Of a stretch of DNA of 64,000 nt, positions 3,501 through 64,000 are shown piece by piece. The number at the start of each line of letters is the position of its first letter. Positions within the stretch are counted from its first letter, which is position 1. The stretch is from NCBI RefSeq assembly GCF_000226095.1, contig NC_016476.1, positions 3,968,001 through 4,032,000 on the forward strand, written 5' to 3'. The position numbers were made by a program, and so were the translations under genes. The notes under the pieces are model-generated. The model searched no databases. It saw only the letters and a list, made by a program, of their open reading frames with translations, and was not told where the DNA came from. This DNA is from Thermothelomyces thermophilus ATCC 42464. Lineage: Eukaryota; Ascomycota; Sordariomycetes; Sordariales; Chaetomiaceae.

Positions 3501-3566
3501 CGTTGCTATCACTCCCTTTGTTCTATTATAGTTTAGAACGGAGGTAACTTCGACCTCGACATCGAC

Positions 3567-15769: not shown

Positions 15770-15782
15770 GTTATAAGCCCAG
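15770..15782 (+). other. Copia primer-binding site, half-tRNA type
   Basis: GTTATAAGCCCAG directly follows the 5' LTR. It resembles the complement of the anticodon arm of initiator tRNA-Met (GTTATGAGCCCAG), with one G-to-A. This points to priming by an internal tRNA fragment, as in Drosophila copia, rather than a tRNA 3' end. Confidence 0.55.
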
Positions 15783-16129
15783 TGCCTTAACTACTCCTCT
15801 ACCGATGTATCTTTAATATTAGTGGTAGCTTTTTCTATTACGAACTCTCTTACCTTACTTTAATACGCTTTCAATGATGGATCTGTCTATTATATCTAAG
15901 ATCCTAGTCAAGACTTTTATATACCTTATAAGGCCTAGTTCCTAGAACTTGTAGTATATCGAACTATAATTATAGGCTAAATTCGCCAGTATATAAGGAT
16001 TTGTTAACCTTAATAGCGACTGTAAGCCAGATCTAGAAGTTCTGTAGCGCCTAACCTATAAGCAAGCTAGAGATAACCTTATCCTAGCTTCCTAGGAGTA
16101 ACTCCTAGAAGGATTGTCGTCCTCGATAT

Positions 16130-19100
16130 CTATAGATTTAATGCCTTCTAATGTAGCTATTATAGCCGAATTCGCGTGACTATAAGACTTTTTTTATGAA
16201 GATATCATATATACCATAGACGTTAGCAGGTAAATAGGATAGCTATAACGCTAGCTAGCGTATACCGTAGATTCTAAACTCCATAAAGCTATAAAAGCGT
16301 ATAAGAAGAAGGATATTAACCTTATTAGGGGGATTATCTAGGCGCTTTACTCTATACTTATACTATCCCTCATAACGCTCTATATGATAGTTACTATATA
16401 ATATATAGCTAGTCTTAATGTAGCTAAGCGTTTAGGAGTTAATCTATAGTACTAGATTCGTAACTTTAATGTTACCTTCTAACGAGCTATCTAATACGAC
16501 ATTCTGGAAGTATAGGATATGTAAGGACTTTACACCTTTCTTAATGTTATTGCTATATATATCTTACTAACCTAGGTAGCGAATAAGAGGATAAAAATCA
16601 AGCTTATTAATAGTATAGGATAGCTACTTCCGGAGCTTAATATCCTTATTACGATAGTTAAGATCCTAATTAATAACGACGTATAACCTAGAGTCTCTTA
16701 AAAGGATAGAATCTTCTTGACAACCTATATACTAATACTTCCTATAGCTTAGAAGAGTAGTAAAGAGAGAGGTAAAGACTTATATAGAGACTCTTGTAAC
16801 GGTTAGTAGCGTAATACGAGATATCCCTATAAGCGTCTAAGATATCTATAGGATCTAGTAGACTATTATATACTTAAGTAAGCTATCTATAGTAATAAGC
16901 AACGCTTATACCTTTCTAATAAGGAGTATAAAAGGATTTGCTAAGAGCTCGATAAGCCAAAGTAGGCTAGACTAAAAAACTAACTTATTGCTAAGTAAAG
17001 GGAGCTATGCTATTCTAGGTAGTTAGGGGTAGAATACCTTAGTTCCCTTAATACGTTAATTATTAGCCTTTAACTACTTAGTAAGCTCTTGACTTACTAT
17101 AGGACATTTAGTATAGTTGCTCTATAGCGCTATCTACTTTTGGAAAGCACTTTACTAGACTTATATAGTACGATCTACTTAGTTAATAATAAGAAGTTCC
17201 TTTTACCTAGGACGTTTATTAAGGTAGAAGATCCTAAGTTCGTTAAAATAGGTATAATAACCTTTCCTATTAGTAAGAGGGGCACTTAGGTAATGAAGAA
17301 CGTTCTAGATAGACTATATAGACTATATACTAAGAACCTAATACTTAAGGATATTGCTATCGTTAAAGGATTCTATATTAACATTATCTTAGAAGCTCCA
17401 TTACTTAAGGTAAGCGCTTAGTATTATAGCTTAGATTGCTCTCTATGTTTTAGAACACTAGAAAATAACATTATACTTTATAAGTTAGAACGTAAGTATA
17501 ATCTTACCTTCCTCGAATATAAGCCACTTTCTTACTACCTAAGCTTCCTAGACTATATCTTAATTAGTAAAGCAGGTATCATAAACGTTTATATATCCCT
17601 ATAGAACGTGTTTACCATATATAGTAGAAGGTCCCGGATATAAGCGTTACCTACTATAAGAGAGGATACCAAGGATCTTTAGCACTTAAGAGCTAGCTAC
17701 CTTGGACTAGAAGCATTAAAAGCACTTATTAATGATGCTAGAAATGTCTATATCAAAGGGACAGCGTACATTAAGTACAAGAGCTACACTTGTACTTATA
17801 TAAGCAAGGTCATCTCTAGGAAAACACTACCTAAGCAGAAGTCTATACGCCTATTCTAGCGAGTAGCCTAGGATCTATTTGACTATTCTAAAGCAATTAA
17901 TATATCGCGATAACTACTTATAATTATTAATAAGTATAGTAGGAAGCTCTTCCCTTTTCTCTTAATGATAAAGTCGCTAGACTAGATTATAGGAGTTATC
18001 TGGAACTTCGAGAGCTAGGTAAGACGCTAATATAGGCTTACTATCTATAAGATTAAGTAGGATAATGATATTATAATGATTAGTTTAGCAGGGTATATAT
18101 TAATATGTTATTAGACTTAGGCTATAGAAAGCGGTATTAATCTTAAACTCTTACCTTTATATACCTACGAGCTTAATAGACTAGCAAAGCGAGTAGGGCA
18201 AGAACTAATCTTACACTTAATTAAGATGCTTAATAGCGCGAATCTGCCCATAAAGCTCTAGTTAGAAAGTATATAAGTAGCGGCGTACTTATATATAATA
18301 AGCCTAAGCCGTGTTTACTTGTTTAGAACTCCTAACGAAGTACTCTATAGCTAGTTTAAATAGTATTTTCGCTAGTATAAACCTAGCTTGATAATTATAT
18401 CAACTAGTAACTTATATTTAGACTAAAGTAATATCTTTATATATAGATATTAGGTATATATTCTCTATAAGGATAAGAAAGCTAAGTAATATATAAAGAA
18501 CTTTAAGGTACTACTATATAGGCTAATAAGGTATCTTATAAGATATCATATATTTAATATCTATTGTATTTAGATACCTGAGCTTAATAGGGTTATTATA
18601 ACTTATAATATTTACTTCGATAAGAAGACTTTTTACTATCTAGGTAAAGAGCAGCCGATAGAGTTATTATTAGCGGTAGCAAGCTAGGAAGTTAATTAAT
18701 TTGATCTTGGCAAAGATTCCTAGGATATTAACCTTCTCTAGGAAGCGTTATAATAGACCTAGCAATTAGTAGAAGACTTTATTATAGTAACTTGGCCACC
18801 TCTATCGTAAGAGAGTCTAGCGGTAGACCGACCTCTCTAATAGGGTTAAGACTTAGGGATAAGAGAGCTCTCTAATATATAGCCTATAAGCGAGCAATTA
18901 GTTCTAGAGACTCTTATAGCAAAGATATAAGCAATAGACGAACTTACTAAATGGATAGAGAGCTTTAGAGGACTTTTAACCCCTAAATATATACCTAAGC
19001 CCTTGGTAACTTGTCTTATACCGGCTAGTAAAGGGGATGTCTACTAGGAAGTAAGAGGGTTTAAATCAGGGCCTTCCTAGTCGCTAGCTAGCTAACTAAA

Positions 19101-21190
19101 TGCTAGGGAGAGCAGGGGAGCCGTCAAATCTAACGGAGGAATACCTTCTATAGAAGAATCTAGCATATGTAATGACTAGATAGAAGAGCTAGGAGCTAGG
19201 GATAGTACTACTAATATATTATACCCTACTATAGAACGGGAGGAATAGAGCATTAAGCGAAGTCTAGATTAGCTAACGTATTCTCTAGAACGTAAGAGCA
19301 AAGGAGGAGTTACTTAGCAACCTCCTACAAGGAGAGGCAGAGGTAGGAAGAGGGCTTATAAGCCTAGGGACTCTATCTAGTTAAGTGAAAGGCTATAAAA
19401 TAAAGAGAAGATCAATTACTACTACTCCTTTATCTATATAATGAATGAACTCTGGTAATAGTTCTATAAGACTTACCTACCTAATTAATAGGAAGCTTAC
19501 CTAGGAGACTAGAGCTTTCGAACGATATATATAGTATTTATTACCACTATTTAATAGAAGGATACTATATGCCCTAGAGTAGCCCTAAATAAGTCGTATT
19601 AGTATATTAACGATCTCATTCGTGTTTCTAATAACTAGTAAGACCTATATAATTACCTATTAGAATAATAGTTTAAAGACACGGCTCGCGAGGAGATATA
19701 TAACTTAGAGAGTAGAGGAACGTAGAAGATTGTACTACGTAAGTAGGCAAAAGTATAACCTATCCTATTAAAATAGGTCTTCGCGTATAAATTTAATAAG
19801 AACGGTTTCTTAGAAAAGTATAAGGCAAGGATTTATATATAAGGTGATCTATAAGATATTAGCTTAGTAGAAAGTATATATATAGCTACTCTAGCCGCTT
19901 AATCATTCTATGTAATGATAGCGATCGCTATATACTTCGACTTAGAAGTTAAGTAGTTCGATATAATGTAAGCGTTCCTTAACGCTAAACGACTAGAAGA
20001 TAATTCTATCGTCTACAAATTACTAGAAGGATTTAAGTAGCTAGGGAAATATATAGAGTTATAGAGAGCTCTATATAGCTTAAGAGACTTGCTACTCTTA
20101 TAATATAAGGAGTTCTATAAAACGCTATTAGATCTAAGTATAGAACTATCAGGCAAAGAGAAGTACCTCTTCCTAAGCTATAATAAACGAATCATCCTAA
20201 TCTTCTATATCGACGACTTCTTAGTCTTTTTCTATAAAAGTAACGCTATAATAGCCGAGCGTATAATGAAAGGAATTAAAGCTCGATACGACGTCTATAA
20301 GCAGGATAATGTCAGTTAGTTCCTTAGCATTAGGGTAATTCGAGACTAATCCATATATAAGATATAGTTAGTCTACGACCAATATATTAGAAAGGTAGTA
20401 AGAAGATATAGGCTAGATATACCTAGTATATATAAGCTAACTCCCTTAAGCTATAAAGAACTTAAGAAGTTCGAAAGGAGCGCTATTAGTACGTAGATCA
20501 AAGAGTATTAGGAGCTTATCGGATTAATCCTATATTATATAGTTATACTATATCTAGACGTTATATATACCTATTTAGTACTCTCTTAATACCTGACTAA
20601 CCTAGGACTAGACTACTTATTAGAGGTATGGCAAGTAGTAAGATATCCATTTAAGAGCTCTTGCCTATTAATCTAGTATAAAGGCAAGCAAGCGCTAGGA
20701 AGTCCGATGCTTATAATTACTAGGGACGCTTTGTATATAGATAATCTAGATACACGATGTTTGTCATAGGGATATATCTTCTTCCTATTTAGAGATCCTA
20801 TTATATAGAAGGCGTCGTACTAGGATACTATTATAATATTAAGCATTAAAGCAGAACTTCTAATACTCTCCCTTATAATAAGAGAGGCTATAGCACTTGA
20901 AAGGCTATTTATAGACATAGATCTTAAGCTTAGGGAACCCTAGAACATCTACTATAATAATTAGCAAACGATTAGACTAGTAATAGCTAAGAACAAACGT
21001 ATTAATACTCACCTATGGTATATAGACATCTATAATATATAATTATACTAAGAAGTAGTAAAAGGAACGTTTAAAGCTATATATTTACTAACTAGTTAGA
21101 TGCTAATAGATAGGCTTACTAAACGACTTAGCTAATAAGCCTTTGAGCATTAGAGGGCTCTCTTTAATCTTTAAGATATTAGTTATAGGC
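16130..21190 (+). pseudogene. Copia gag-pol relic
   Basis: A stop-riddled polyprotein on the plus strand. The integrase region lies around 17,640-18,330 (AYLYIISLSR..RTPNEVLYS near its end). The reverse transcriptase has FNKNGFLEKYKARI, FDIM.AFLNAKR and an intact YIDD box (20206-20217). RNase H has SIKAELLILSL and REAIALERLF, and the frame ends DRLTKRLS. The catalytic YIDD survives because its codons lack CpA context, while many Trp and Gln codons are stops. Confidence 0.85.
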
Positions 21191-22344
21191 TTATATAACT
21201 AGGGGGTAGAAAATAAGTTAAATTCGCTAAATAAAATACCGCCTAATACTCCTTATCTATTACTATTAGCCGTTATTAGGATTAATAGCCTTGCCCTTAC
21301 CTTTATCCTAGCCAGGTAATGATATAGCGCCCAATATATCATTAGACATGCTAATATAAGTATTACGAGCCTCCTTAATCTTGCCTAACTAGTAGAAGAT
21401 ATTATATATAGAGTAGGCAATCTTTATAAAATATACAAGTTTAGCCTTATGAAGCTTATACTCCTCTATATTACCTATACTAGTATATTTAAGGTTATTC
21501 TAAAGAACTATATATAACTTCTTAAGATCCTATATATATCTATTAGCGATTTGCCTATATATTAAAGGTAGAGGTTTAGGATCCAAAGACTTATAAAAGC
21601 CTTAGCTCTACCTAGTAAAGCCTTTATTAAATCCTTTATTAACCTAACGTAAGAAGTAAGACTACTATTATAGTTAGTATAAGTATCGTAAGAGCTATTA
21701 GACATATAGGTAATTAGTATATATATCTTTACACTCATAGAAACTATAGGTATAATAGTAGTAGTAGGAGCTAGCGCTAGAATAATCGTAATATTTACTA
21801 AAAGAACGTCCTACTAGAGCTAACTATATATATATTCTATAAGGTACCTTACAAAGCTTACTAGCTATAATATTACTATATTTAGTTAGCTTAAACGATC
21901 TTAATATAACTAGTAAAGCGCTAGAAAACTATAAAACTAGTATAAAATCAATCGAATAAAGATAATAGAAATACTTATAGTTCAGAAGCTTTAATATACT
22001 TATACTTTTAAGGTATTATAAGAGTAGAAGTCGACTTACTAGTAATTATAATATTCATAATAGGTATACCTAATAAGTTATCTATTAATTTAAATATGAA
22101 AGGCATTATCTTATTATTACTATAATTAAAACTAGGAATACTATTACTACTATAGTTATAATAGCTATATTTAATCTATAGCTTTAAAGGAATTACTCTA
22201 CTATACTTAACTCTTTTAGACTTCCAAATACAGAAGGTAGGCCCTCAAAGGAGCTATCAAGGTAAGAGCGATAAAAGACATAATACTAAGAATAATATTA
22301 CTATAAAGCGTAGTTAAACGACTACCACGTTTAACTAGGGGGTA

Positions 22345-48161: not shown

Positions 48162-48985
48162 GCTGAAAGACGCGACGGCTTGGCGGACAGAAAAGGAGAC
48201 AGGGAGGAGCGCGAACTGTTGGCGTCATTTGCGAAAAGGCAGAAACGGAGTTCCTTGTAGCGGGCAGCGAGTGGGGAAGGGCGAGGGGGAGGGGTTTTAT
48301 TGAGAGCGAAGTTGAAGCCTGGTTAGGATATACACACATAAATATCGGTCTTGCCTTGCGTGTTGAATGACGGTCATACGGAAATAGACCAAGGTTTTGC
48401 AGAGCCCTACCACATATGACCATAGACAGTAGAAAATACAGGATCCCGTCCGCTCTCCCATAGTCAAGCTACTGACCGCTACTTTGTCTAGAGGGTAAGA
48501 GAAAACGTCACGAAACGGCCTCAACCTTACCGTCGACTGTTAAGATAGCCGTTCTTATCGCCCCTTTCGGCGGCGCGATTGGCCTCTACTGTTTCGAGGC
48601 TACGGCCAGGTTAAAAAGCTGGGCCGCCCTCCCAGTCGGCGCCGCACGTTGGGTCGCCCTAACGCAAAATCCGCGACCGACCGCCCATCGTCTCTTGAAA
48701 AACTCGCATTCATCGGGCAAAGATGTCTCGCAAGCGCCGCGCTGTTGTTCTCAAGAAACCAGCCTGCTCGCGCGACCGTAACGAGCGACAACGAAAAGCG
48801 GAGTTGTCGAAAATGGCTGGTTACGAGCGTGCAGCATGAGACCCCGCCAGCGCTCGCGGCAGCTTGGCTTCTCGAACTTCTTCACAACATCACCCTTTTC
48901 CTCCTACACGGTAATTATTCTATTTGGCATCGTATCACAAACGGGCTGCACGCTCGCTGTCTAAAACCAGGCGGTAAGCGAATCG
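47465..48985. other. Intergenic with long poly-A tract
   Basis: 1.5 kb without a supported gene. A run of 33 A lies at 48128-48160. Confidence 0.45.
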
Positions 48986-51592
48986 ATGCCGCCAACTCGC
49001 CCTCAGCGGGCCAAAAGCCCTGAAGCAGCCCCGACCGGACCTTCCCGCCGGGCCCCCCGCGTAGATCGCCATTGCCGTGCATTGCACGAAGACGGTTCCG
49101 ATTGCCGCGCGCGCCTGCTCCACGCCAGCCACGTCTTTTGCCCCGCTCACCACCGAGAGTACAAACGGCTGTACGAGTCGTACAAGCGGACCGAGAAGCA
49201 CTACAGCGGCATCGAGTCAAAGGCTGACGGGGCCGACGATGTCAAGACAACGATCAAGGCCAAGGTGGCCGCCGGTAGAGAAACCCTGCGACTAAGGGAC
49301 CAGGTCAACCGTCGGTTTTTTAGTTTCTCGGTTCAGAACCGCGGTCATGTCAAGTGGATCATGAAGCTCCAATCCGAAGTCCTCGCTCTGGAGCGGGAGC
49401 TGGAGCGGGAGTTGGCGGCCCCGGAAGCCCCGGAAGCCAAGGGCTCTGCGAGTCCAAGACGGCCGCCGAAGCCGCAATCACTGTCACCACTTGATCCGGC
49501 AGTTCCATTGTCGGCGCTGGGTCACCTCCCTGTTAGCAGCCCTATCGTCGTCCTGAGACAAGCCTCCGACGCCATCTTGACTGCCAAGATCAAGGAACTC
49601 TACTCCATCTCGCCCGCACTGGATGACTCGTCATCCCTCGTCCTCGATGACGTCGACCCCGGCGTCACGAGGGAGCTAGACGACCGTGACTATATCATTC
49701 GCTTCTTCTTTCGCGAGCTTATCGCGCAGAAAGCCGACGCCGACGTGCTTGCCAGGGCCGCCCGAACCCAAAGTATCAACACTTTTCTCCGCGAGTCGTC
49801 AGCAGAGCATGTCGAGGGTTATATCCGATTCTTCCACGCTTTTCAAGAGGGACGCCATCACACGTTGCATATTTTGCGTGACGCTGTTTGCGACTATCTC
49901 TTAATAGATTCGAAATCGCCATCCACCACGATTCTGGGCGCCGGAATCGCCACAGATGACAGCCCACGGAGAATGACTTCTAGGGGCTGGGACCTATTAT
50001 GGACCAACTTCCACGACATTGTGGGGTGGTGGAACCTCGAGCTTTTTGCCGTTCAGTTCGACGACTTAGTCGCGGTTAAGGCCTTGACGGCGTGCCAACG
50101 CTACGGAACGGGAACCCCGAGCGAGGATGACGAGGATGACAAGGACAACGAGGACAACAGGGACGACGTCTCAAGCTGGTACGTGCCCAACGAAGACGTC
50201 TCTCAGGAAAGCGCGCTCGCTGTGTTACATGGCTTCATCGCCGTCACAAAGGGCTTCAGCGACCACGACTCGCCCCGCGTCGAAGCCGAGCCTGCCTTTG
50301 CCAAGGAAAGGCAGACACGCTGCTACCTTGTGGGACGGATGAGCAAGCAGGATCCCGTGGCCAGGCAGCTGGCGCAGGAGCTGGCCGAGAGGATAGCGAG
50401 CTTTGTCGTTTTGGTGTATGATCGAGAGAAGGAAGGAGAGGCGGCCTCCGCTCTGGTCTTACCAGCCCCCCCTGACGCAAACCCGTGGATCGGACGATCT
50501 CGCACGGCGCCCACAAACGAAGCGCTCGGCTCCCAACCTTGGACGGTGGAGTGGTCTTTGGCTGATGTCCTCAGCGACATTGGGCTTATCCACAGCCTGA
50601 GGGACAGGAACATGGCAAAGGACTATTACGAGTTCATCATCATCGATAGAACCCCGGGGAAGACATTCGATATTCTCGATGCCGTGGCAGATGCCTTGTC
50701 TAAGCTGAAGGGAGATTCGCCATTCGACCAGGTCTTCCGTCAGGTCATCGCGAAATACGTCCCAGCTGAGGAGCGAGACCAGTATCTGGAGGCCGTTGCG
50801 CAGATGGATTTTGGCCAACCTACACTGTCAGCACCTCCCCAGTATCTAGGCAACCGCGTCAGAAGCTGGGACATTCCCAACTCACTCCGTGCTATTCTTG
50901 GTGCTGCGCTGCAGGATTCGTCACGGGTCACCACCCTGCATGAGTCGCGGCTCATCTCCCACGTCGCGGCGGACCTCGAATCGCACGGTGTCACTGCGCG
51001 GATTACCGAGTACGAGGCATCTCACACCTGCCCAATCGCTGTGCGAGGCGTCGACGGGCTCGACGACCTCTACTTCCACTACGACATGGGGCCCATGAGC
51101 GAACGAGTCATCCGCGGGAGCGTGCTTGATTTCGATCCTTCCATCAACAGTCTCACCGAGTTCGCCGAAGCCTACCACCGTGCCCACCCCAACGCCGTCT
51201 TCGCCAAGGGGAGCATAAAGGTTCATTACTGCGCGTGGCCCATGCCCATGCTTGCCGGGCCGCGCTACTCTCGTCTCAACTTTCGTACGCCCGAAGGCCG
51301 CCTGTACAGGTGGAAGGCACTGCCGTTCGACATCCCCTTAGCCTCCCGCGTGTGGCAGGTGTTCGTCAATCACGAGCTCAACAGCAGACTGCCATTCGCT
51401 CGCCTCCAACAAACGACTTTGCTGATATGTGCCGAGAACCGAGATGACGCCGAGTCCAGTGCCAAGGCGTTGTCTGAGATTGGTGAGAAGCACGGATGGT
51501 CATTTTCGATTCCGCCACCGGCGTCGTGGCTGAGCGACGTAAAGGGGCTGGGTCTCGAGACTTTGTGGGAGGGAGTTCGTGCCGCTCTATAG
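48986..51592 (+). CDS. Large intronless protein of unknown family with N-terminal Cys/His cluster
   Basis: 868 residues in one open frame starting at ATG 48986. I do not recognise the family. A Pro/Arg-rich start is followed by a possible zinc site with Cys30, Cys40, Cys52 and His55/56 (C-x9-C-x11-C-x2-H), then a charged helical stretch rich in Glu/Lys/Arg (about residues 60-160). An acidic low-complexity run lies near residues 380-393. The C-terminal half reads like a globular domain (YFHYDMGPMSERVIRGSVLD, FAKGSIKVHYCAWPMP). There are no membrane segments and no signal peptide. Codon use and GC match real genes. Absence of introns is unusual next to its multi-intron neighbours. It ends about 390 bp before the virus-like insertion. 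Confidence 0.7.
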   Translation: MPPTRPQRAKSPEAAPTGPSRRAPRVDRHCRALHEDGSDCRARLLHASHVFCPAHHREYKRLYESYKRTEKHYSGIESKADGADDVKTTIKAKVAAGRETLRLRDQVNRRFFSFSVQNRGHVKWIMKLQSEVLALERELERELAAPEAPEAKGSASPRRPPKPQSLSPLDPAVPLSALGHLPVSSPIVVLRQASDAILTAKIKELYSISPALDDSSSLVLDDVDPGVTRELDDRDYIIRFFFRELIAQKADADVLARAARTQSINTFLRESSAEHVEGYIRFFHAFQEGRHHTLHILRDAVCDYLLIDSKSPSTTILGAGIATDDSPRRMTSRGWDLLWTNFHDIVGWWNLELFAVQFDDLVAVKALTACQRYGTGTPSEDDEDDKDNEDNRDDVSSWYVPNEDVSQESALAVLHGFIAVTKGFSDHDSPRVEAEPAFAKERQTRCYLVGRMSKQDPVARQLAQELAERIASFVVLVYDREKEGEAASALVLPAPPDANPWIGRSRTAPTNEALGSQPWTVEWSLADVLSDIGLIHSLRDRNMAKDYYEFIIIDRTPGKTFDILDAVADALSKLKGDSPFDQVFRQVIAKYVPAEERDQYLEAVAQMDFGQPTLSAPPQYLGNRVRSWDIPNSLRAILGAALQDSSRVTTLHESRLISHVAADLESHGVTARITEYEASHTCPIAVRGVDGLDDLYFHYDMGPMSERVIRGSVLDFDPSINSLTEFAEAYHRAHPNAVFAKGSIKVHYCAWPMPMLAGPRYSRLNFRTPEGRLYRWKALPFDIPLASRVWQVFVNHELNSRLPFARLQQTTLLICAENRDDAESSAKALSEIGEKHGWSFSIPPPASWLSDVKGLGLETLWEGVRAAL

Positions 51593-51979
51593 CTGAAGGC
51601 CTCTTCTCTCGATCACGGTTGGTCTGGCCAACAACTCGACAGGAGGAGAGGGTTGCCCATGCGGGCATGGATGGGCGAATAATTACACTGTCCACTGCGG
51701 TCGCCTCCAAGGTGATTTTTCAGCGGCAGGCAGACACGAGATCATGTGGACCTAGGCATCCAGGGGGCGGTGTTTACATCCTCTTCGCAGAAGTACCTGA
51801 AAAGGGGGAGGGGGGACGGGGTCAGCCCTTGGGGAATTCGAAATGTCTATTTAGGGGGCATTCTCGCCGCGATTACATGCGGAAGTGGTCTTTTGCTCCT
51901 CGTATTACTTTATCTTCATTTACCTTACCTTACCTATCTCTTTTATTAACTTATTTTCAACAAACCATGATTTTCAATC

Positions 51980-52561
51980 ATGGACAACTCAACAAATAAT
52001 CCAACCAAAGAGAGCGCCCTGGAACGCGGGCTCCTCTCTTCCATAACCGATCCTACTGGTAACATCCAGCAGATCGCCACTCGTCCGTACTCGGACGAGT
52101 TCAAGCGAGACACCGCGTACAATGCTTCGAGGAAGCAGGTGCGTGTCCGGGTCTACCTAACCACGGCAGATCGAAACTTTCTGTCGAACAAGGTCTATCA
52201 GCACCTCGACCTTGAATTCTCCGCCACTTCTGGTTCAGGCCATAGCCTAGCAAATGCCAGGCGGGCCATCGAGCAAGAGATTGTCGTCTCAAAATGCTCC
52301 AAACACCAAAATTTGGTGGACGTTGGAGGGAATTTCTTCACGTACATCACGATGTGCCGCGAGAAATTCCACTGCTGCTGCCCACTGCTCGATATCAGGG
52401 ACTCGGCGAGATTGTCGACACGCCTCTTCCAGCTCGACACATTGATCCGCGAGCAACTTACCGAGGATCCCGTTCCTAACCTGGATTACGAGACCGCGAA
52501 CCGGCGCAATGCAAAGAAGCAGCGAGCCAGGGCCGTGCAGCAGAACCCTGCCCAGTTCTAA
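51980..52561 (+). pseudogene. Viral-type methyltransferase core, stopped early
   Basis: 193 codons from ATG 51980. Diagnostic motifs of the alphavirus-like methyltransferase/guanylyltransferase appear in the correct order: the invariant His in GHSLANARRA (His codon 52241-52243, residue 88), then LVDVGGN, then HCCCPLLDIRD (52370-52402, residues 131-141). In RNA viruses this enzyme caps the viral mRNA on membranes. The frame ends at TAA 52559-52561, but the same frame continues for about 20 codons of plausible family sequence (DCYVRADVLLFL) before a frame change. The TAA is therefore a disabling mutation rather than the natural end. Confidence 0.65.
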
Positions 52562-52782
52562 TGTCGGAGAAGAGCGCAAGACTGCTACGTGCGTGCCGAC
52601 GTGCTGCTGTTCCTGGCTCGCTCTACGACATCCCCGTGGATGACATCGCCAAGATCATGTTTGCCCACAAGGCAACCAAGGGCTTCGGGTACATCATCTT
52701 TGAGCCCGAGATGCTGACCGACGACCGCGGATATATCCGGGGCTCGACTGCGAGTGGGAGAAGACGGTCAAGAACCCGCTGA
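52561..52782 (+). pseudogene. Methyltransferase continuation fragment (second frame)
   Basis: From 52618 this frame carries SLYDIPVDDIA and FEPEMLTDDRG, which in viral methyltransferases follow the HCC/D-x-RD region directly. The first 19 codons of the open frame are out of register with that family. Past about 52,745 the family resemblance moves into a third frame (CEWEKTVKNPL, EDSSWCYWHDFEN), so a second frame change lies there. Confidence 0.6.
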
Positions 52783-52784
52783 AG

Positions 52785-54872
52785 GTGGCGGGCGTGGTTG
52801 TCGGTGAGACCGAGTCTGTGATCATCGAGTACCGCTTCCGCGAGGACTCGTCCTGGTGCTACTGGCATGACTTCGAAAACTTGGTGCTCCTGGCATCCAA
52901 GCTGATGGTCAAGTACAAGGACCATCACTACGTCATCGAACGCGTGTACGGCCACGGCATCCTTCGCCTCGACATCACCGCCGTCGAGCCGGTATCGCTC
53001 CCTTCTACCCTGGCTTTCAGCTACTGGAAATCCGGGTACAAGAACAGGGTTGGTGTTCGCGTTTTCGATCTCGCGGGCCTGTCTCGATCGTCCACAACCA
53101 AGAACATTCGGTCCGAGATTGCGTGGGTGGACTCGGCACTGGTGCAACAGCTTGTCAGCTACTGCCTGCGGCTCAGCGACGAGAAATTCACGCCCAAGAC
53201 CGTGTACGACTACGCGGTCGGTGTAAACGCCCGCTTTACCGTCAACAGCGTCGATGTCACAGTTAAGGTGTGCACAGACACCATGCTGGCGTACGGCATC
53301 TCATTCTCGCTGTGGTGGATCGCCTTCTGCTTCAAGTTCGACCAGAGCTACATCCAGACGGTCTTGGTACGGCGCGAGATGGGGCGTCGCAATCTGCGCG
53401 TGGCCAGCGTGACGAAGTTCATGCTCATGCGCTTCACCGAGGCTGTCGCGAGTCCCAAGTGGTTGCCGACCCTGACGGGAGAGACGGGCTTGTTCACCAA
53501 CTTCGCCGACAGCTTGGTTCAGCACATGTCGCAGTCCCTGGAGGCAGGATACGACGTGCCGAACCCGGAAATCGTCGAGATCGATCCTCTCATCTCGTTT
53601 GAGGACGTGTTCGACGCCTTTAAGAGCAGTTTCCGGGTCAGAACCATCACGGTGGACGAGATGGACAACTGGACCAACTCGTACGACAAGTTGGTCGAGC
53701 CCATAACCATCATCAAAACGCTCGACCTGCTCGCCGATAGGATCCGGAGCACGTCGCCGGGAAAGTACCGCGAAGTGCTGGAGGACTGCACTAAGACGTT
53801 GCGACGTCGGCTCGCCATCCTGGACCCAGAGCGGCACGGGTGGATTACAGCCTCATGGTCTGCACGCCAAGACGTCCAACGCATTCTGGACAGCGTGCTT
53901 CCGCTCTCGGGTGGTCCGGTCGGCTCAAGCACAGAGCTGTCGGAGGCGAATGGCGGCGATGGCTGCGATAGCGTCACACCGTCGCAATCAGTGTCGATTG
54001 TGTGCGGTGCCGAGCCGTCTACGTTGCCGGCTACGATAGCATCTCGCGAAGACCCTGGCCATTCCGACGTACAAGGACTGCCCATGATCTCGTACAACAC
54101 GACGAGCACCTGCAGGACGGCCATGGCAAGCTTCCACGAGCTCTGCGGCGGTGTCTTCCACCTGGGCAAGGACGCGTACTGCGGATCCAACCAGTGTGCT
54201 GTCGGCGCACTGCTGGGAGCGCTCAACAGCGTCGGATACAAGCTCTCGAACCTCGAGGCAGTAGAAGCCTTGTACGGTGACGACGAGGGAAGGAACATTG
54301 TCAAAAGACTGGACGACGAGACGCTGAGGGCGACGCTTTTCCGCGAGCTGACTGCGAACGAAGTCCGCGAGGGGCTGGTCGAAGCGGCCAATGGGCAGAG
54401 GACGGACGAATTCGAGCACGCTGACATGCAAACGTATGCGGCCAAGCTCGGGTTCCAGCTTGGCATCGTCGTGATCGAGAAGGACTGCCTGGTCTTCATG
54501 GGGCCTAGCGATTGCGAAGCCTTTGGGCTCCCGGAAAACGCGCCGACGCTGTACATGGCGCACATCAACCGGAACCAATGGCAGAGCATTGTGGCGGGCG
54601 AGTCGGACAAGGTGAAGAACTATCGCTTCTTCATGGCCCCTCCCAGGGGAGGTGCTGATGCTGACGATGACTTCGAGAACAACGGCGTTGATCTGGAAGC
54701 GTTCCTGCGCGACGCCGGCCAGGTCATGGATGAATTGGACGACATCCGCCTGAGCGACGATGGCTCTGTTAACGAGGCCGCAGACGACGAGGCTGCCCTT
54801 TCAGACAAGGGCGTCTCTGCACTCGGCGAGCTCTGCCAACACTTGGGCCACAGCGGACTCTCAAGAAGATGA
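52785..54872 (+). pseudogene. Long virus-like ORF with possible OTU/papain-like protease
   Basis: 695 codons without a stop; no ATG start, since the frame is entered by a frame change (it opens with GTG). The first about 60 codons complete the methyltransferase extension (EDSSWCYWHDFENL). The middle (about residues 70-430) is unassigned. A candidate cysteine-protease site follows: GSNQCAVGALLGAL with Cys at residue 471 (codon 54195-54197), and a later AHINRNQW with His at residue 593 (54561-54563), a spacing and order compatible with OTU-type viral proteases. The end is acidic (DADDDFEN, DELDDIRLSDD). Retention of such a long open frame suggests a young insertion or continued selection. Confidence 0.55.
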
Positions 54873-54886
54873 CCCAGCCATGGCCG

Positions 54887-55632
54887 ACTCGACTGCCGAA
54901 GTGTTTGACTTTGAGGATGCGAAACCACGGGTGCGTATGCCATCAGGCAGCAAAACAGCCTCAGGCGAGGCACGCACTACCGACAAAGAGGCATCCGAGA
55001 AGACCATTCCGGCAAAGACACAGTCGACCAAGGCGAGGAAGGCAGCCAGGGCAACGCAAGCAGGCGCCAAATCCTCGAAAAAGGCTAAATCGGCCGACGA
55101 AGAGGCCAAGCGCACCGAGAGCGGCGAGACCAAGCAGGCCAAGAAGACCAAGGGGGCTACTCCCGGGCGAAGAAGCAGGCCAAGGTGGCAGAGACCAAGC
55201 CCAGCAAGCAGAGCCAAAAAAGCGCGAAGTCTCAAGTAAGCGACGGCGGTCGGAACAGCCAAGGTCCTCCCGCCCGCGAAGCGCGCTCTGCGCTACAGTG
55301 AGAGGGACCATGCCGGGAACGATGGCCCGTACGTAAATGGCTGGAAGACGATCGACCAGCGCCTGTCCGAGATTGCGGCTCGTGTGCAGCAAGACCAAGC
55401 GGGGGCCAATCTGCAGACACTCGCCAAGAAGGAGGTGTCGGGCGACAACCGGCCACTCTTCACGAGTAAGCCTGAAGACAAGACAGGCGACAAGGACGCA
55501 CCTTCTGACAGTAGCAATACGGATGGAGGTGACGCCAAACATGCGCCGCTGTCGCAGGTGGACAAGGAAAGGATCCTCGAAGAGCGAACCAGAGCTCTAG
55601 TCAGCTATCTCGTGTCACTCATTTTTAATTGA
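54887..55632 (+). pseudogene. Lys/Ala-rich tail of the virus-like element
   Basis: After a frame change near 54,850 the coding reads MADSTAEVFDFEDAKPR and then a low-complexity Lys/Ala/Thr segment up to a stop at 55237-55239. The frame then resumes (RALRYSERDHAGNDG, YVNGWKTIDQRLSEIAARVQQ) and ends at TGA 55630-55632. Such basic linkers occur in viral polyproteins and in host nuclear proteins alike. Its link to the upstream viral part is by contiguity. Confidence 0.4.
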
Positions 55633-55867
55633 AGTTTCTTTGTTTTGTTTAAAAGTGTGCCTTGACTACCCCTGAATTACGTGTTGTGCGTCATATGCAG
55701 ATCTCAGCTGACCAGAGGCCTTTACGGCTGAGCAGCTACTAGTAGACCCGGCCGATGATACCAAGAGCAACATCGCTGGTCCGCAGCGAAGATGGGAGAG
55801 ATAACAGCCGGTTCCCTCTGTTTCCATGTTTATTATCGTCGTAGTCATTATGGTCTCTACACTGTGA

Positions 55868-56403
55868 ATGGAATTCTCTGCAGGTGCTCGCCTTGATTCA
55901 CCGTATGGACTGCCTGGCTTTTCCCCACTCTCCAGTGGCATCGACGAATTCCCGGAAGGCGCTCGGGCTGCCCATCAGCTTCTCCAAATATTGCCTCTTG
56001 TCCGGGGTTCCTCCGATCCTAGGAGTCCCCAAGCCATGGCTACTGATGGTGTCCTGAAGTTGCCCTGTGGAATTCAAGGAAGTGCTTTTGTGAGGCCCGA
56101 GAAGCGGTGCCACGGAAGCACCGGATTGCCGCGGTGTTGTCGAGACCCCGACCCGGGTGTCCGGTTTAGCTAAAGCCAGGGCCTGTTGAAGTCCCCGGAC
56201 TGTTGAAGCCCCCGGAGGGCCTCGAGGGACTCGGCGTCGAGGTCGACCACTCCAGATGGGTGTAGCGAGGCCCAGACAGTGATTGGTTTGTCCGCGTCGT
56301 CGTGCCGGAAGACCGTAAATCCGTCCCCAATTCTTTTTGCATTTGTGAACCATCTGTGAAGACGACAAGATCCGAGCTCTGAAGGGTGCCCATTAGTCCT
56401 CAA
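55868..56403 (-). pseudogene. LINE RNase H/C-terminal relic
   Basis: On the minus strand, frames covering 56,170-56,400 give SSDLVVFTDGS followed by a small GTGFTVFRHDDADKPITVW-type segment, the start of the RNase H domain found in fungal Tad/CgT1-like non-LTR elements. The opposite end (about 55,900-56,000) has GTPDKRQYLEKLMG and FREFVDATGEW, resembling their C-termini. Stops and frame changes break it. It is not strongly RIP-affected. Confidence 0.45.
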
Positions 56404-56739
56404 AACGCGCCGCAGCTGTCTTCTTGTCTAGCATGCGGGTCCCCAGGGTTGAAATGGCGGCGGCGGAAAATGGGGAAACCTCGAGGGCCGCGCACTGAAG
56501 CCGGATTCGGGGCCGGGAGACTGTGGCTGCATTGCCCGTCTCTCAATCTCGTCTTTCAAGTCCTCCAACTCAGTCTCATTCGTTATCACTGGGAAGAGGG
56601 CGGGAAAATTCAAAGTCGATCGCAACGATCTTCTCGCCAACACGTAGAAAGTTGTGGAGCTGTGGATCCCCATGGACAACACCGTTTTAACTTTCGAAAG
56701 AGATTGTTTGACGCATTACCCCGGTTCAAAACTCAACCG

Positions 56740-57626
56740 ATGACCAACCGTACTCGCATACATTGTGCCGAGTTCAAGAAGATCGTCACCAAATGTGGAG
56801 CATACGCAGCTGAAGTTAAGAAGCTTAGTGTAACTGCAGTTCAACTTCTCGCCGTCTCGTCTTCTGCTCGTGTTCTTGGGTCCGACGTACCCTACTTCAA
56901 GGCGGAGTACGTTAATCTTTTCGTTAAGCGCGGCGAACTTCGGGGACGTACAAACGATGAAGTGGACAAGAAACTTCGAAATCCGAATGGGGCTGGAGGA
57001 GAATTCTCTAAAATATACAACGAGATTAAATCTCGTAGGTGCAAGACGCACTTCTCGTCGGATCCGTTCCAACGGCACCGTCCCATCCCGTTAACAACAG
57101 CCCGCAAGGCCGCGACGGGCTGACAACATCAAGCCGTCCAACTAAGCGACGAAGGACGGAACAACAGCAAGACGAACATCGTAGCAACAAATCTGGCGGA
57201 GTTTCGGCAGCCCAAGAGGGGTCACCCCTCGACTTGCTTGCTAATGCTCTTCATGAGGTCAAGCGTCACGCCGAAACAGTTTCTGAGAGGCTCAACGGAG
57301 ACTTTGTCACGGTGCTCTCCAAATATTGCAAGGGTCTTGACGCTGTCCAACGAGCTGCGGCTCTATTCGGTACGGCTTGCCACCCATCTGTCCATTTCCA
57401 GGCTAACATCGCAATGAAGAAGGCGCGATACATATTATGGAATCAGCCTCAATTCCTGCGCAAACGACCGCTGAGGAAAGGGAACAATGGGTCTCGGTTT
57501 CCTACGCACAGCTACGTTGGTTGTAACATTGTAACAGCAAGGCGAACGATGGAGACCTGCACCCTCGCAACACGTCAGTTGATGAGGGTGAACTTACGGC
57601 GATCATGGCCGATGTGGGCAAAGTAG
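56740..57626 (+). CDS. Hypothetical protein, tentative two-exon model
   Basis: I do not recognise this product. ATG 56740 opens MTNRTRIHCAEFKKIVTKCG and runs to 57038. A 62-bp intron (57039-57100, GTGCAA..CAG, with a TTAAC branch-like site) restores frame into 57101-57626, giving 274 residues. The second exon starts with a basic nuclear-localisation-like PTKRRRTEQQQ and has amphipathic helices (LLANALHEVKRHAETVSERL). Past about 57,370 the better-looking frame shifts (MESASIPAQTTAEEREQ, then MADVGKVEGIVGHFLHTGIK up to 57799), so either more introns exist or the gene is decayed. Confidence 0.35.
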
Positions 57627-57799
57627 AGGGCATTGTCGGGCACTTTCTACACACTGGTATCAAGACAAGTATAGTGAGGAGGAAAGAGAGAGGAAGAAGG
57701 TTGACCGAGGCCGTCTGCCTATACATGGCTCCGGAAACAGACGAGGACTTCAGGCTCGAAATTTGGATTGGGGTTTACGCTGGTCAAACGATATCATAA

Positions 57800-59663
57800 C
57801 TGATATCAACTGGTGACGACCTCCGGGACATTCTTGGTGATTACCTTCATGCGGCGACGGAATCTAGCAAGACCAAACCTTCGGTACGACTGACACGGAT
57901 AGATATGGATTACAAGTTGGATTTGATGTTGGGCTTTGTAAAGGGCTTCGAGATACTCTAGACTGTATTTCCTTACTAGGCATTTTTCGTCACCAATTTA
58001 ACTATTGCCTGCATCACTAACACTTTATTACCTCGAGGAACGGCAACATCCTCTTCGTCCGTATCCGTTTTCTGGGGCCTGCCTTTTTGAGCGGCGACGA
58101 GCACACTCCCTGTTCCAGCCTTCCATGATAACAACCTCTCATGCTCAACGGGGGGGAAAATGTGGTAGTCGATGTATTCGTAATCTCCGTTGTTGGTCTG
58201 ATCGCCCTGTTCATTCTAGTTAGTGAAGGACTGGTGTAGGAGCGCTAGTCGCTTACGTCGGGCATTGGCAAGAGAGCGCCGTGGCTCGGTCAATGGTCAA
58301 ATAGTGTTAGAAGAAAAGGTTGGTGAGAGTTAGAGGGGATCGCGTGTTAGATTTGGAGGTATTGGTGACCATCGATCAGATCAAAAGTTACGCTTCAACG
58401 AGGCCCGACTGCAAATGGCCTGGCGAGAGACTGCGGACGCGATGCAAAATTTCGGAGGGCCATAAGAGAGGGTCGCGTCGGGCGATGACGTGAAGGCCCA
58501 ACGGACAAGTGGCACTTTGCTGCGGGGTTGAGTTTCCCTTGTCACCCGACGCCCATCTGAAATTGAAAAGAACCGGAGGAGTCACGAAGGCATGTGGAGC
58601 GAGTGTGGTTCTTCCTGATTGGTTATAATACTTCGATTTTAATTGGCGAAAAAGAGAGAGGACGACGGTGCGTCTCTTGTGTTCGTGTGAACGGCATTAA
58701 CCACCCGTGCTACCTTAATATGGCTGAGGACACGCGATGACTGCGGGATCTTTGCCCACATTAATACGCCACCGTCCTTGGTCTTTCCGTGTTATTTCCC
58801 GAAGCCAATGACGGCCAATGAAATTCCATGGCAGGGACCCGCAACCCAAGCCGTTGTCTTTGATGCCGGTGGAAGCGCGGAGATAGTTAAGGAAAACCTA
58901 GTCTTTGGTCCAAACCCCGGGGCCGCCAGGTCCTCGAAGAGATGTTTCACTGTCAGCGATTGAACGAGGCCGGAGATTTATGTGGCCAAACCACTTGATC
59001 TGCTAATCCGCTCTGAACGGATTGACGGGTTTCGGCCGCCGCGCGTATGGCCTCGGCCCTACATACATTACTACAGTAGCTGGTGTTATCCCCGGCTACA
59101 GGCCAGGGATGCCTATCGGCGGCTTAATCCTCAAGAGACGGATTGGCGGATTGGAGGATAAGCGGTTTGGCGGCACGAATGGAACATCAGCACTATTGCA
59201 GTATAGGTCGGGGCTGCTATAGTCCCCGGTGTGAGACAGAAGCCACGAACGATTGCCCGTCGCCAGATCAACCCCTCATTGCAAACTGCAGGCGAGTTGC
59301 TCGCAGCGGACTGACAGGGCGGATCGTTTGGCTCGGCGCAAGGCGCCACATTTTGTGAACCTGCTCTATATCGACGGATGCAAGACCAAACAAGCCGAGC
59401 AAAAGAACCCGGCTCATGGCGGCCCCGGGATGTTGTAGAAGGCGAAACTCGGGAAAAAAGGGCGTGGGCGGGTGAGCAGCAGGTGTAACTGCAATTGACG
59501 CATTTTGGCGGCTTTTGAGGTTCTAGGTTTTTTTCTTTTTTTTTTTTTTTTTTTTCGAAACTAACAAAAGATCCCGGTATGAAATGTCGGCCAACTTTTA
59601 CACAGCAGATCGTTCAATGCTGTACACCCCGAGGCTGCATTTGAGCGGTGCCGCAGCCGTCAA
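57800..59663. other. Intergenic
   Basis: 1.9 kb with no supported gene; includes a run of 20 T (59536-59555). Confidence 0.4.
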
Positions 59664-60026
59664 CTAGTGCGCTGGAACCCCCCACTTTCTAGCGTAGCAA
59701 GCAAGGAGTTCCTCGAAAAGGCGAGGATTCCCTAGCTCCTCAGCTAGAAGATTGTGTAGCGACTCTCCTTCAACGTTTTCCAGAAGCATAGCTGGAATCG
59801 GCCGCTTGCTTATCTGGTATTTCGTCTGCTCGTGGTCGTAGCTGGCGACCTCGCCAAACATACGTGGGATGCAGTGGCCCTGGAGCTGTCGAAGGTGCTT
59901 GTATGTCGCTATTTCATTTTCGTAGCTATCGGCCTTCTGGGGGTTTCGCTCCTTTAGAATGACAGTTGCCAAGTAGCCCCTCATCTGATCATACAATCCG
60001 GTGTCCTCCGTCCTTGCCCCTTCCAC
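59664..60026 (-). pseudogene. Kinase-like (fungal APH/protein-kinase fold) fragment
   Basis: The minus-strand frame contains YLATVILKERNP, SYENEIATYKHLRQLQG and IPAMLLENVEGESLHNL. These resemble the N-lobe of fungal kinase-like phosphotransferases: a Lys-containing strand, a Glu-containing helix and a hinge. The frame ends with KWGVPAH at a stop, before the catalytic HxD loop, so the kinase is truncated. Upstream (60,030-60,190) a frame reading LCDVFGITAIHGGFITQWLR suggests the protein once continued from the gene at 60215-61193 through unresolved introns or a frame change. Confidence 0.45.
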
Positions 60027-60214
60027 CGCCTGGAATGCTGCCTTCCGTGGCGGCCCGCTCGAGCGCCGAGCCGTTTGTTAAAATCATCGTTGTTCTCAAC
60101 TGCTGGCATCTGCGCTTGCGGAGCCACTGTGTAATGAACCCGCCGTGGATTGCTGTGATCCCAAAGACGTCGCAGAGCCATGGCTCGGTACACGACGCTC
60201 CTCCCTCCGCGGCC

Positions 60215-61193
60215 TCAACGGTCTCTCATTTGGCTTCTCTGACTTGGGGCGGTCAGCGAATCAGACAGCCCGTCAGGGTTGAGAATCCACCACAAGATAG
60301 CCCAGACAGTGGCCTCTGAGCAAGTGGCAATCGCGCCTGTATCAAGAGTGTATGATCCTCGTAGTGTGACGACAAGAGCAGGCGTTGGTGACGAGGGATC
60401 GTATGAGGCCTGAATCACCCGGACTCGGGTATCTTCAAAAGAAACAACCGTGCTCTGGCGGGGCTAAGGATTAGCAATTCCAAGCGGAAGGGTAAAAGCC
60501 GCCCTAAGAAACCAACCTTGATAGGGCTGTTTCCGACACGGAGTCTCCAGCCTCTGAACTCGTCCTCCCATAGCGTGTCGTTGATCTCAAGGCGCATAAG
60601 GCACGCGCATGCGAGTAGCTCGCTTCGGAGGAGATACTTGTCCGCCCGGCTTCGGTTGAGACGCGGGTCCACCGGCGCTGTTTGGTCGGCGAGGATGCAG
60701 CCCCAGTGCGTGGCTGAGTGCTCAATTATAGCTTCCCCGGCCCACGATATATGGCCGCTCTCATGGATATTCGGTCCTGCGAGGCAATCCTCCTGAGGGT
60801 CGTGTCCTGAGAACCTGGCGGAGAGCGGCGTGTCAGTGCAGCGCAACATGGAGGTACTCCAAGAGGAAAACAACCGTACTCGCGAAGGAGCGGCACCGCT
60901 GCCTGCCGGCGCGAGAGAAAAGAGTGCGCGGCGCGGCGGAAAGCGGCGGCCCAATCAAATGCCGAAGGATAACGCTGAGGATCGACCGCAACGCGACAGG
61001 CCTTACGCGGCGGTCGTGGGCACGTCGGGACAGAGTCTGCATCGCTATACTCGCAGCGGATGTTGAACGCCTGGTCGATATAGGTACAAAGAAACGAGTC
61101 ATACTCCGTATTGCAGAGCTCGTCAATCAGGTCGACCAACTTGGCGTCGAGTTGCGCCCACGCGTTGGGTTCGGGAGGACTTGAAAGGGTCAT
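60215..61193 (-). CDS. Hypothetical fungal protein, three exons, probably N-terminal part of a kinase-like gene
   Basis: Exons on the minus strand 61193-60880, 60814-60517 and 60454-60215 join in frame (283 residues). Both introns are typical: 65 bp (GTACGG..CAG, with branch site CTGAC) and 62 bp (GTTGGT..CAG). Readable segments are WAQLDAKLVDLIDELCNTEYD, EDCLAGPNIHESGHISWAGE and QASYDPSSPTPALVVTLRGS; no catalytic motif is evident. The kinase-like fragment follows 190 bp downstream on the same strand, so this may be the front of one longer, now broken gene. Function unknown. Confidence 0.55.
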
Positions 61194-62399
61194 GGTGCCT
61201 CGAGGAAAAACAAGTGCTGGGGACGAAACTGATGGGCAACAAGGGTAGGCGGCTGATTGGGTAATCCGCCAAACCGCGTTGCTGGAGGGCCTGGAACTGA
61301 AGGCGGGGTACTACGGTGCCTTCCTTAACTCACGCAATGTCAACATCAACGCAACGTACTCTCAGTCCAACCTAGAACCAGCCAGCCGAGCTGAGCATCC
61401 CAGCAACGAGAATCAAGGGCAAGCCGGGCGCGGGATTACGGAAGTTTTCCCAATCGGCCCAAGAGCGGCTCGAGAGCGCCGTTGTTCATGGATTGGCTGT
61501 GCGCACCCTGGGCGATCTCTGTTGCCGTGGTACAGCCTCCTTCCGTTTCTTCTCCCCTTCTTTCTCTCTTTACGGCTTATTTGTACTTAGTCAAACGCAC
61601 TTTTGGCTTTAGGCTGACGACCCGCAATTCCTCCTCCAGGAGGCTTCTCTGCCTCTACCGTTCCCGTTGATTCACTCCTCACCATGAGGCCAGTGTGGCC
61701 TCCGAGATGACCACCGGTTGATGCAATGGAATGAATGCCATCTGGCGAACCCAGGAATTTTCACACGACGCCAAGTTAGGCAAGCACAGCGCATCTTACA
61801 GCAGAATCTTCTAGGCATGGATAAGTTAGAGACCCTCCTCGATCTTATCTGCCTCCCGTCGCCTACAGAGGCTCCTCGCACTCCCAAAAGGAGCGCCGGC
61901 AGCCTGGGGGAAACTCTTGGTGTATTCGCGCCCCGTGTCAGTTTATACAACCGATTGATGAAACAGCTGGCTGCCACGCCCACCCTCGAAGAAACACGGC
62001 CGTTGGTTGACGCCATGTGGCAAGGGAGTTTCGAGATGCCAGACCGGTCCGCGAAGCGGCCCGCAAAAGGAAGCCTGGAGGAACTGCTGTAGTGTATTAT
62101 AATTAGGCTGGCGAAGTGGATTTAAAATGGCATCATAACACTAGCAACGTCGCCTTACATGAGGTAACTGGGGAGAGAAGCAGCGTTGGGAAACGCGGAG
62201 AAGGGTCGGGTCTTTTCCGAGCGGCTTGCCGCGGGGTCACGTCCGACATGGAAGTGTTGAAGGCCCAGCTGCCACAGAACGGGAAACGCAACGAAGTGGC
62301 GCACCATACCCCCCCCCCCATCCTCTTCAAACAGATCTGGCATGCAAGCCCCCTGTCGCGGCATACCTGCATCGAACAAAAAACTGAAAACATCCATGC
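61194..62399. other. Region with one tentative small ORF
   Basis: A plus-strand frame 61718-62092 (124 codons, MMQWNECHLANPGIFTRRQV..) has balanced composition (FAPRVSLYNRLMKQLAATP) but no known domain and no clear upstream exon. Otherwise nothing is supported. Confidence 0.3.
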
Positions 62400-63967
62400 T
62401 TACTCATCATCTTCGCTATCTGCCTCCACTGGCACATCTCCCGCTGGCTCAAACTCGACTACCGTGTCCACCATGAGCGCCTTCCGGTTGCTGCCGATAA
62501 CTGGCATCCAGTTACACTCGTTCGTCCAAAGGTGATTTCTGGGTGCCTGAATCATCGGAAGGATGTCGCCCGTTTGCATGTCTTCAAAGTCGAACGACAG
62601 CAGCCGTTCCTTGTGGTTTCGAAGCCTCACAAAGGGACCGCCCACAATCCTTATGCGATCGTCTAACCTGTACTTGCACAGGCAATAGGCGCGGAACTCT
62701 CGCGACACGACCAAGCAAGTCTTCCAGGTATCATAGTCCACGAAATCCAGAATCCGGTGGTATAGTTCTGGAGGAAGAATGCCCGCTGACTTGGATGCTG
62801 CACGGCGGCTCGCGGCAACCTCGAAGAAGTTGACGAGCGACGCGAGTCCGGAGAAGTGGCGTCTTAGTCTTCGCGCGGTTCCCGTGCAGTTGGACCGCAT
62901 GATAAGCTGACCGTACTCATGCTTGATCTCCATCCCGGGCTTCAGCTCTGGCCGCTCTCGTGGATGTGTGCTCACACAATACTCAGCGCGCAGAGGCGAG
63001 AGGTAAATGGCTTCACTGACTGTAACGAATGGCTCGTCTTCGTCGTCGTCAAAGGACACTTCCGCAAAAGCCACTTCGAAGAGCGACAGAACGACCACCT
63101 GAAAGTTGGTCTGTCCCTGTTCGATGCCCCAACTAACGGCGTTGGTAATTGCCTCGCCGTCAACCACTAGTGTAAGGCTGACAAGCACGCCCTCGAGCCA
63201 GTACATCGTCTTTGTGGGCGACGCTCCTGGAGGCTCGCCCGGTCGATGCGACATGGAACCAAACTCCAGCAACGGAGCGTTATGGCCAACCCACTCTTCG
63301 CTAAGCCATCCTGGGGACTTTGGGAGGTGGTTCGACTGGCAGTTCCACCGGTAGCAAGTTCGAGGGTTGCATGGCTGTGCAGGGAAGGAGTGAAATGTAG
63401 CTTGGCTGGAGGCAATCGAGACGAGGGCAAAGGTGAGCTCGCGGAAAGGAAACGAGTCCGGGCTCCACTCCCTCCCAAATCGAATGATCTCGTTTTGGTA
63501 CTCGATAAGCGTCCTGGCCAAAACGTATGTAAGGAACGCCTTTCGCGCATCTCCGATGTCTGTCCTTGGAGATACGACGTGGAAGTCGTAACCGATCTCT
63601 TGGTTCCGTTTGGGAAGCTCCAAAGCCGGGGAGGCCATATGCTCTTCCGGGCAAATATCGAGAGAGATGGTGGGCTTATACCGATAGACGCTCTTTGCAA
63701 TCGCGCGGAGCCACAGGTTGTCCTGGCGCGGGATGTTTCCTAGCCGCCAATGAATGCTGAAGTTCATTGTGAGAATCTCACGGTCCAGGTCGATGATATA
63801 GAAAAATTCGGCGCCACTGTCGTCTAGCCGGGGCAACTCCGACGGTAACGACTCGAACTCGTCAAACTGCGAATAGTCGGGACTGGACCCGTCCCGGATC
63901 TCGTAGACATGTTGCTCGAGGTCGCGTTCCCTGGCTGTGTACTCCGCCCGCATCCGCTTGAGCCATT
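62400..63967 (-). CDS. F-box-like protein, 5'-partial
   Basis: A fungal F-box-type protein, expected to act as a substrate adaptor in an SCF ubiquitin ligase. The last exon runs from an acceptor (GATTCACAG, exon from 63967) to TAA at 62400; the start lies right of the window. The N-terminal part, SLPSELPRLDDSGAEFFYIIDLDREIL then FSIHWRLGNIPR, matches a fungal family in which the protein describes its own conserved opening. The F-box-like segment is ILPPELYHRILDFVDYDTWKTC, near the C-terminal third, followed by a short helical/beta tail and an acidic end (EADSEDDE). About 520 residues are visible. Confidence 0.75.
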
Positions 63968-64000
63968 CTGTGAATCGTCAGCAAATTAGATTCCATGTAT

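Follow-up and report, generated by a model that had tools for sequence, protein, structure and literature searches.

According to the cited passages, DNA copies of plus-strand RNA viruses have been detected far more seldom in plant chromosomes than those of other RNA viruses, and cucumber CsFRLS1 is described there as the endogenous 5′ half of a genome like that of citrus leaf blotch virus (PMC3136472). For the fungus Eutypa lata, the literature names an endogenous virus of the tobamo-like type, as a putative replicase readthrough protein. The tobamo-like mycoviruses NaTLV1, ArTlV1, MpTlV1 and WaTBLV are reported, in the passages cited, to encode a methyltransferase and then a helicase in open reading frame 1 (ORF1) and the polymerase in ORF2 (PMC12090730, PMC6655640, PMC8705367). 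Here we analysed a window of 64,000 nucleotides from the fungus Thermothelomyces thermophilus ATCC 42464 (contig NC_016476.1, positions 3,968,001 to 4,032,000, forward strand), in which a non-retroviral endogenous viral element extends from window position 51980 to about 55611 on the plus strand and reads as fragments of a single protein spread over three frames. Very probably, the element represents the 5′ portion of the replicase gene of a positive-strand RNA virus, copied into DNA and present in the fungal chromosome. An earlier note, made from the letters of this DNA alone, had proposed an RNA-virus-like element in a fungal chromosome, and this is borne out by a Pfam match, by long colinear relatives (one of them with a viral helicase) and by flanks that were each found once.

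The first piece of the element comprises 193 codons from the ATG at 51980 (51980–52558) and matches the Pfam family of viral capping methyltransferases (Vmethyltransf, PF01660) at 7.2e-15, covering the N-terminal part of the domain. The conserved His, DxGG and HCxCP...RD motifs of PF01660 are present in this piece (GHSLANARR, LVDVGGN and HCCCPLLDIRD) and are common to three related proteins described below (P0001, P0004 and P0005). A second piece in another frame (52615–52758, from SLYDIPVDD to MLTDDRGYI) corresponds to the middle of the methyltransferase and matches PF01660 at 9e-4 with 18.9 bits, which is below the family cut-off of 27 bits. The domain is thus not contained whole in one frame and is split across three frames with a stop. 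All motifs of an alphavirus-like methyltransferase pointed out in the earlier note are present, in order and on the plus strand. When the whole genome (38,744,216 bases in 7 contigs) was searched with the Vmethyltransf profile, a single place was found, which is this locus (1.4e-13), and none of the 14 control genomes showed a match; the methyltransferase signal is not due to chance, and a lack of any viral methyltransferase match, which would have refuted the viral identity, is not what was seen. A profile built on the first piece (three sequences) also matches the alphavirus capping enzyme weakly, at E 0.018–0.023, along residues 11–107 of the nsP1 chain.

Searches with the first piece reveal four related database proteins, P0001, P0002, P0004 and P0005, which are located on four other contigs of 17–121 kb in size and are all matched by Pfam Vmethyltransf. 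Two proteins at E 1 were found among 69 candidates of similar length, namely P0001 (54% identical over all 193 residues) and P0002 (59% over 48%), and two more among 468 candidates when longer proteins were allowed, namely P0004 (69%) and P0005 (72%), both along the entire piece. P0002 carries in one frame what the window splits across three. P0004 is 1969 amino acids long, with Vmethyltransf at residues 58–425 and Viral_helicase1 at residues 1674–1930 (6e-22), and P0005 is a protein of 1748 amino acids with the methyltransferase. Searched against the genome, P0004 and P0005 give six colinear matches each, all of them at this locus, and the element is colinear with P0005 at 40–77% identity by piece and with P0004 at 33–76%. 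The order in the relatives is methyltransferase, conserved region, protease-like region, Lys-rich linker, hydrophobic region and helicase. Their end points vary: P0005 passes into unrelated sequence where a helicase would be expected to begin, and P0001, which comes from Lophiostoma macrostomum and is named there a Vmethyltransf-domain-containing protein (contig of 120,641 bases), stops after 211 residues. The end of P0001 lies only 18 residues past the position matching the first in-frame stop of the window (52559), which may be chance because the search favoured proteins of such length.

Judged by the sizes of their contigs rather than by the contig sequences, most of the four relatives would also be chromosomal copies, since 17–121 kb exceeds the 9–13 kb given for tobamo-like mycovirus genomes in the passage cited (PMC12090730). 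However, endornavirus RNA genomes of 13.8–17.5 kb are also recorded in part of another report (PMC6655640), and the 17.3-kb contig of P0005 is therefore no proof by size of a chromosomal copy. The alphavirus-like lineage behind the element has probably become integrated into fungal genomes on more than one occasion.

Our best guess, held with moderate confidence, is that the source virus came from a lineage of the Martellivirales close to the tobamo-like mycoviruses. Among solved structures, the helicase of P0004 is most similar to chains that bear the name Replicase large subunit (3wrx and 3vkw, 5e-22), which we take to be those of tomato mosaic virus; helicases of the alphavirus type, 6jim (helicase, 1.3e-6) and 7y38 (nsP2, 3.2e-6), follow far behind. 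No relatives of P0004 were found in phage records and prokaryote genomes. It seems unlikely that the source was, in place of a tobamo-like virus, one segment (that of VP2) of a vivivirus-type virus with a multipartite genome, although such a source would be compatible with a virus-derived element. As far as the cited passages go, vivivirus VP2 has a methyltransferase and a superfamily 1 helicase with the polymerase in VP1, and P0004 has both domains of VP2, but the segments of FaVvV1 measure 1,060–3,654 nucleotides (PMC12282112) against 5.9 kb for the frame of P0004 alone.

Analysis of the element along P0005 shows how the copy is broken. The first piece ends at an in-frame TAA (52559–52561), beyond which the matches to P0004 and P0005 carry on. 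Frame changes follow near 52616, 52740 and 54808, and a second in-frame TAA is present at 55237. The second piece is 73% identical to residues 210–257 of P0005. The third piece (52737–53984), in the third frame, holds the end of the methyltransferase and the conserved region, being 77% identical to P0005 251–667 and 76% to P0004 254–686. A candidate cysteine protease region follows (54072–54806; 61% to P0005 805–1070, no family match), and then a Lys-rich linker in another frame (54811–55107; 40% to P0005 1065–1158, E 1.4e-4). About 255 residues (P0005 1159–1413) are absent inside the element before the last homologous piece (55216–55617; 54% to P0005 1414–1550 and 47% to P0004 1396–1547), which contains the stop at 55237. 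The element ends at about residue 1550 of P0005, ahead of the helicase. The homology stops near 55611, in a breakpoint region with the sequence CTATCTC (55605–55611) and no homology further downstream, although the match to P0004 could be extended to 55647 across a TGA. In a separate tblastn search, the tails of P0004 and P0005 gave nothing better than E 1.5 against 55600–64000, and no helicase remnant was found downstream of the element in the window. The stop, the several frame changes and the presence of only the 5′ part had all been read correctly from the letters (the stops number two and the frame changes three); of the extent 51980–55632 given at that time, the start holds but the 3′ end does not, and the internal gap had gone unnoticed. 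A spliced host gene was considered and rejected, because the frame changes come without intron-sized gaps (the first three pieces abut or overlap) and one of the matches runs across an in-frame stop. The first stop also overlaps an ATG which opens the next frame (TAATG, 52559–52563), a layout used for stop-restart in some viruses. The overlap is probably accidental, because P0002, P0004 and P0005 have a single open frame there.

The third piece lies inside a long open frame of 722 codons from stop to stop (52704–54869). The frame noticed earlier is thus real, although its length had been put at 695 codons. It is longer than the longest six-frame frame of every one of 300 order-2 Markov shuffles of the element (median 276, maximum 524 codons). 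Neither the third piece nor the whole frame matches a Pfam family above the cut-off (one weak match, LcrR, 0.019), and the frame finds no solved structure at E 1 and, when searched alone, no protein at E 0.001 among 7990 candidates scored.

The region at 54072–54806 had been proposed as an OTU-like protease, with a Cys in GSNQC at 54195 and a His in AHIN at 54561. Both positions are confirmed (codons 54195–54197 and 54561–54563), and both residues are conserved in all three sequences available, those of the window, P0004 and P0005. However, neither the protease-like piece nor its two relatives match the OTU profile, and in the three-sequence alignment the window copy has Gln at the position of the His in an NHW motif of P0004 and P0005. 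In OTU proteases the catalytic Cys stands where a helix starts and the His precedes an aromatic residue (HW or HY motif), and the OTU-like His may perhaps be this NHW His of the relatives. Comparison with solved structures yielded nothing beyond one match at E 1.3, and an AlphaFold2 model from the three sequences (mean predicted local distance difference test score 34.9) is too poor for use. A protease is a plausible candidate reading, and the OTU-like label is a lead rather than a result, because no profile names the region and the model is of such quality.

The pattern of amino-acid changes suggests that the breakage is young relative to the divergence. We made a three-way count of changes over five aligned pieces with 957 shared columns, leaving out the Lys-rich piece and dropping gapped columns. 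Unique changes number 84 in the window, 110 in P0004 and 80 in P0005, and their mean BLOSUM scores are similar, at 0.32, 0.17 and 0.46, respectively (Mann-Whitney p 0.47 and 0.58). Random missense changes in four of the pieces would be expected to average −0.53 to −0.41, with 52–47% scoring below 0, whereas 22 of the 84 window changes score below 0 (p 7e-5 against 47%). On this alignment, most changes of the window branch appear to have arisen under selection on the protein, whether in a virus or in a gene, and the breakage appears to be late, because the window branch is as constrained as both relatives. P0004 and P0005 may be chromosomal copies too, and would then be lenient yardsticks in this comparison.

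Two of the marks of an endogenous viral element are seen here: clear homology to an RNA virus protein, and a place in the chromosomal DNA of the host, in the interior of a 4.34-Mb contig (C5) with host sequence on both sides. Profile and protein-against-genome searches of the 38.7-Mb genome found a single copy, and each flank was found once in a search that skips very common words. The GC content of the element is 0.59 and its indices of repeat-induced point mutation (RIP) are like those of coding DNA, with a TpA/ApT ratio of 0.54, in agreement with the earlier description of GC-rich DNA free of RIP. The AT-rich blocks at 3000–9500 and 14000–22000 of the window have ratios of 1.57 and 1.68.

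We propose that viral RNA inside the hyphae would have been copied by the reverse transcriptase (RT) of a retrotransposon, and that the cDNA would have been joined once into the chromosome of contig C5, cut off ahead of the helicase. Stops, frame changes and the deletion would then have accumulated, such that no working replicase would be made today. Suitable enzymes are present in this genome. In a search with the RT family RVT_1, 150 places were scored out of 1117 candidates; 31 of the 150 fall within frames of 1169–1287 codons without a stop. One such long frame that we examined encodes an aspartic protease, an RT, an RNase H and an integrase, in the order of Ty3-type elements. Copies on contigs C1, C2 and C3 are 99.9–100% identical over 3483 bases. 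Intact and near-identical copies of this kind mean that a recently active reverse transcriptase is at hand. The 31 intact RT frames among 150 genome-wide coexist with the strongly RIP-like AT-rich blocks of the window; the intact retrotransposons represent either a recent burst escaping RIP, or a genome in which RIP is no longer acting. CTATCTC occurs both at 51934–51940, about 40 bases ahead of the first ATG, and at the 3′ breakpoint, and this pair is possibly a target-site repeat or microhomology. However, it is also compatible with chance and is not counted as evidence, because by a hand estimate about 3 such 7-base matches are expected by chance between stretches as long as those compared.

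Several results weigh against an origin from a virus by this route. The flanks are not repeats, no repeat being found at either side in the same word-skipping search, no poly(A) is visible at the 3′ edge, and none of the 150 scored RT places falls inside the window. A link between the retrotransposons and the element is therefore inferred. No close free virus of the element or of P0002 and P0004 was found among the viral contigs of IMG/VR, and the source virus and its polymerase are for that reason unseen. The polymerase family RdRP_2 has no match in the genome in a search made without a positive control. Viral_helicase1 has a sole match in the genome (G000:C6:2358899-2359216), and this falls in a helicase of the cellular kind, with domains AAA_11 and AAA_12, which we take to be of the Upf1/Sen1 type. 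Finally, constrained substitutions are also what one would expect of a host gene long kept and lately broken.

The last point leads to the possibility of a domesticated viral gene, in which fungi would have kept a methyltransferase-protease protein, for example against related viruses, and the present copy would be recently broken or partly used through its 193- and 722-codon frames. Besides the constraint on the window branch, the long open frames of P0004 and P0005 on other contigs speak for it, and the codon use of the 722-codon frame correlates at 0.81 with that of four Pfam-matched host frames of the window, as compared to 0.24 and 0.11 for the shifted frames and 0.66 for the antisense. 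However, the window copy has its stops, three frame changes, internal gap and lost 3′ part, and Gln in place of the NHW His. The relatives do not end at a common point. Moreover, an unbroken stretch of 2.07 kb among five random breaks has a probability of 0.09, and the long open frame therefore needs no selection. Taken together, we consider domestication highly improbable. That virus or cDNA reads were misjoined into the chromosome during assembly can hardly be credited at all, as the element is broken like a genomic relic, lies in the interior of a 4.34-Mb contig and has flanks that were each found once. In addition, two host frames are intact, one of 875 codons next to the element and one of 901 codons at a distance of 25 kb.

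With a virus copy as the preferred reading, the element and its relatives on four other contigs are fossils of a mycovirus lineage that our searches did not reveal in free form, and the relatives provide several long proteins whose protease-like region is unclassified. The many intact retrotransposons make the capture of viral RNA a question testable at defined junctions. A wider idea, which we regard as unlikely, is that one lineage of alphavirus-like replicase, with a methyltransferase, an unclassified protease region, a hydrophobic region and a helicase, repeatedly entered fungal chromosomes and is kept there as long open frames, with DNA copies being the form seen so far and some of them perhaps serving the host. 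Among the neighbours of the element, the adjacent upstream frame of 875 codons (48965–51592, plus strand) has host-like codon use and no Pfam match, and an intact open frame of 525 codons at 62403–63977 likewise has no Pfam match.

Comparison with known systems places the element as follows. It resembles P0001 of Lophiostoma macrostomum in its origin from a fungal genome and in the identity of 54% over the first piece, but P0001 belongs to another fungus and is predicted as a protein of only 211 residues. The ORF1 arrangement of the tobamo-like mycoviruses, methyltransferase and helicase, is matched by P0004, whereas the window copy ends before the helicase. Further traits of these viruses are a polymerase in ORF2 reached by UAG readthrough, a DEXDc protein in ORF3 and a coat protein in ORF4. 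The methyltransferase domain of NaTLV1 starts at residue 54 (ORF1 at nucleotides 64–4,932; passage cited from PMC12090730), against about residue 57 in the element. The ORF1 product of WaTBLV is given as 1647 amino acids in the passage cited (PMC8705367), against 1969 for P0004, and the passages cited for the tobamo-like mycoviruses make no mention of a protease-like and Lys-rich middle such as that of P0004 and the element. The element of Eutypa lata, compared here through its printed description, is also a tobamo-like replicase in a fungal genome, and the present element is less singular than the earlier note had thought; the window copy is broken and stops before the helicase. CsFRLS1, from what the cited passages tell, likewise represents, in a chromosome, the methyltransferase-bearing 5′ part of the replicase of a plus-strand virus, but it has a plant host and a betaflexivirus source (a replicase with an AlkB domain) and includes sequence of the helicase domain. 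The lineage behind the element is uncharacterised, no description of it being found in the passages available from the open-licence literature, and the element adds to a known kind, that of endogenous copies of plus-strand RNA viruses.

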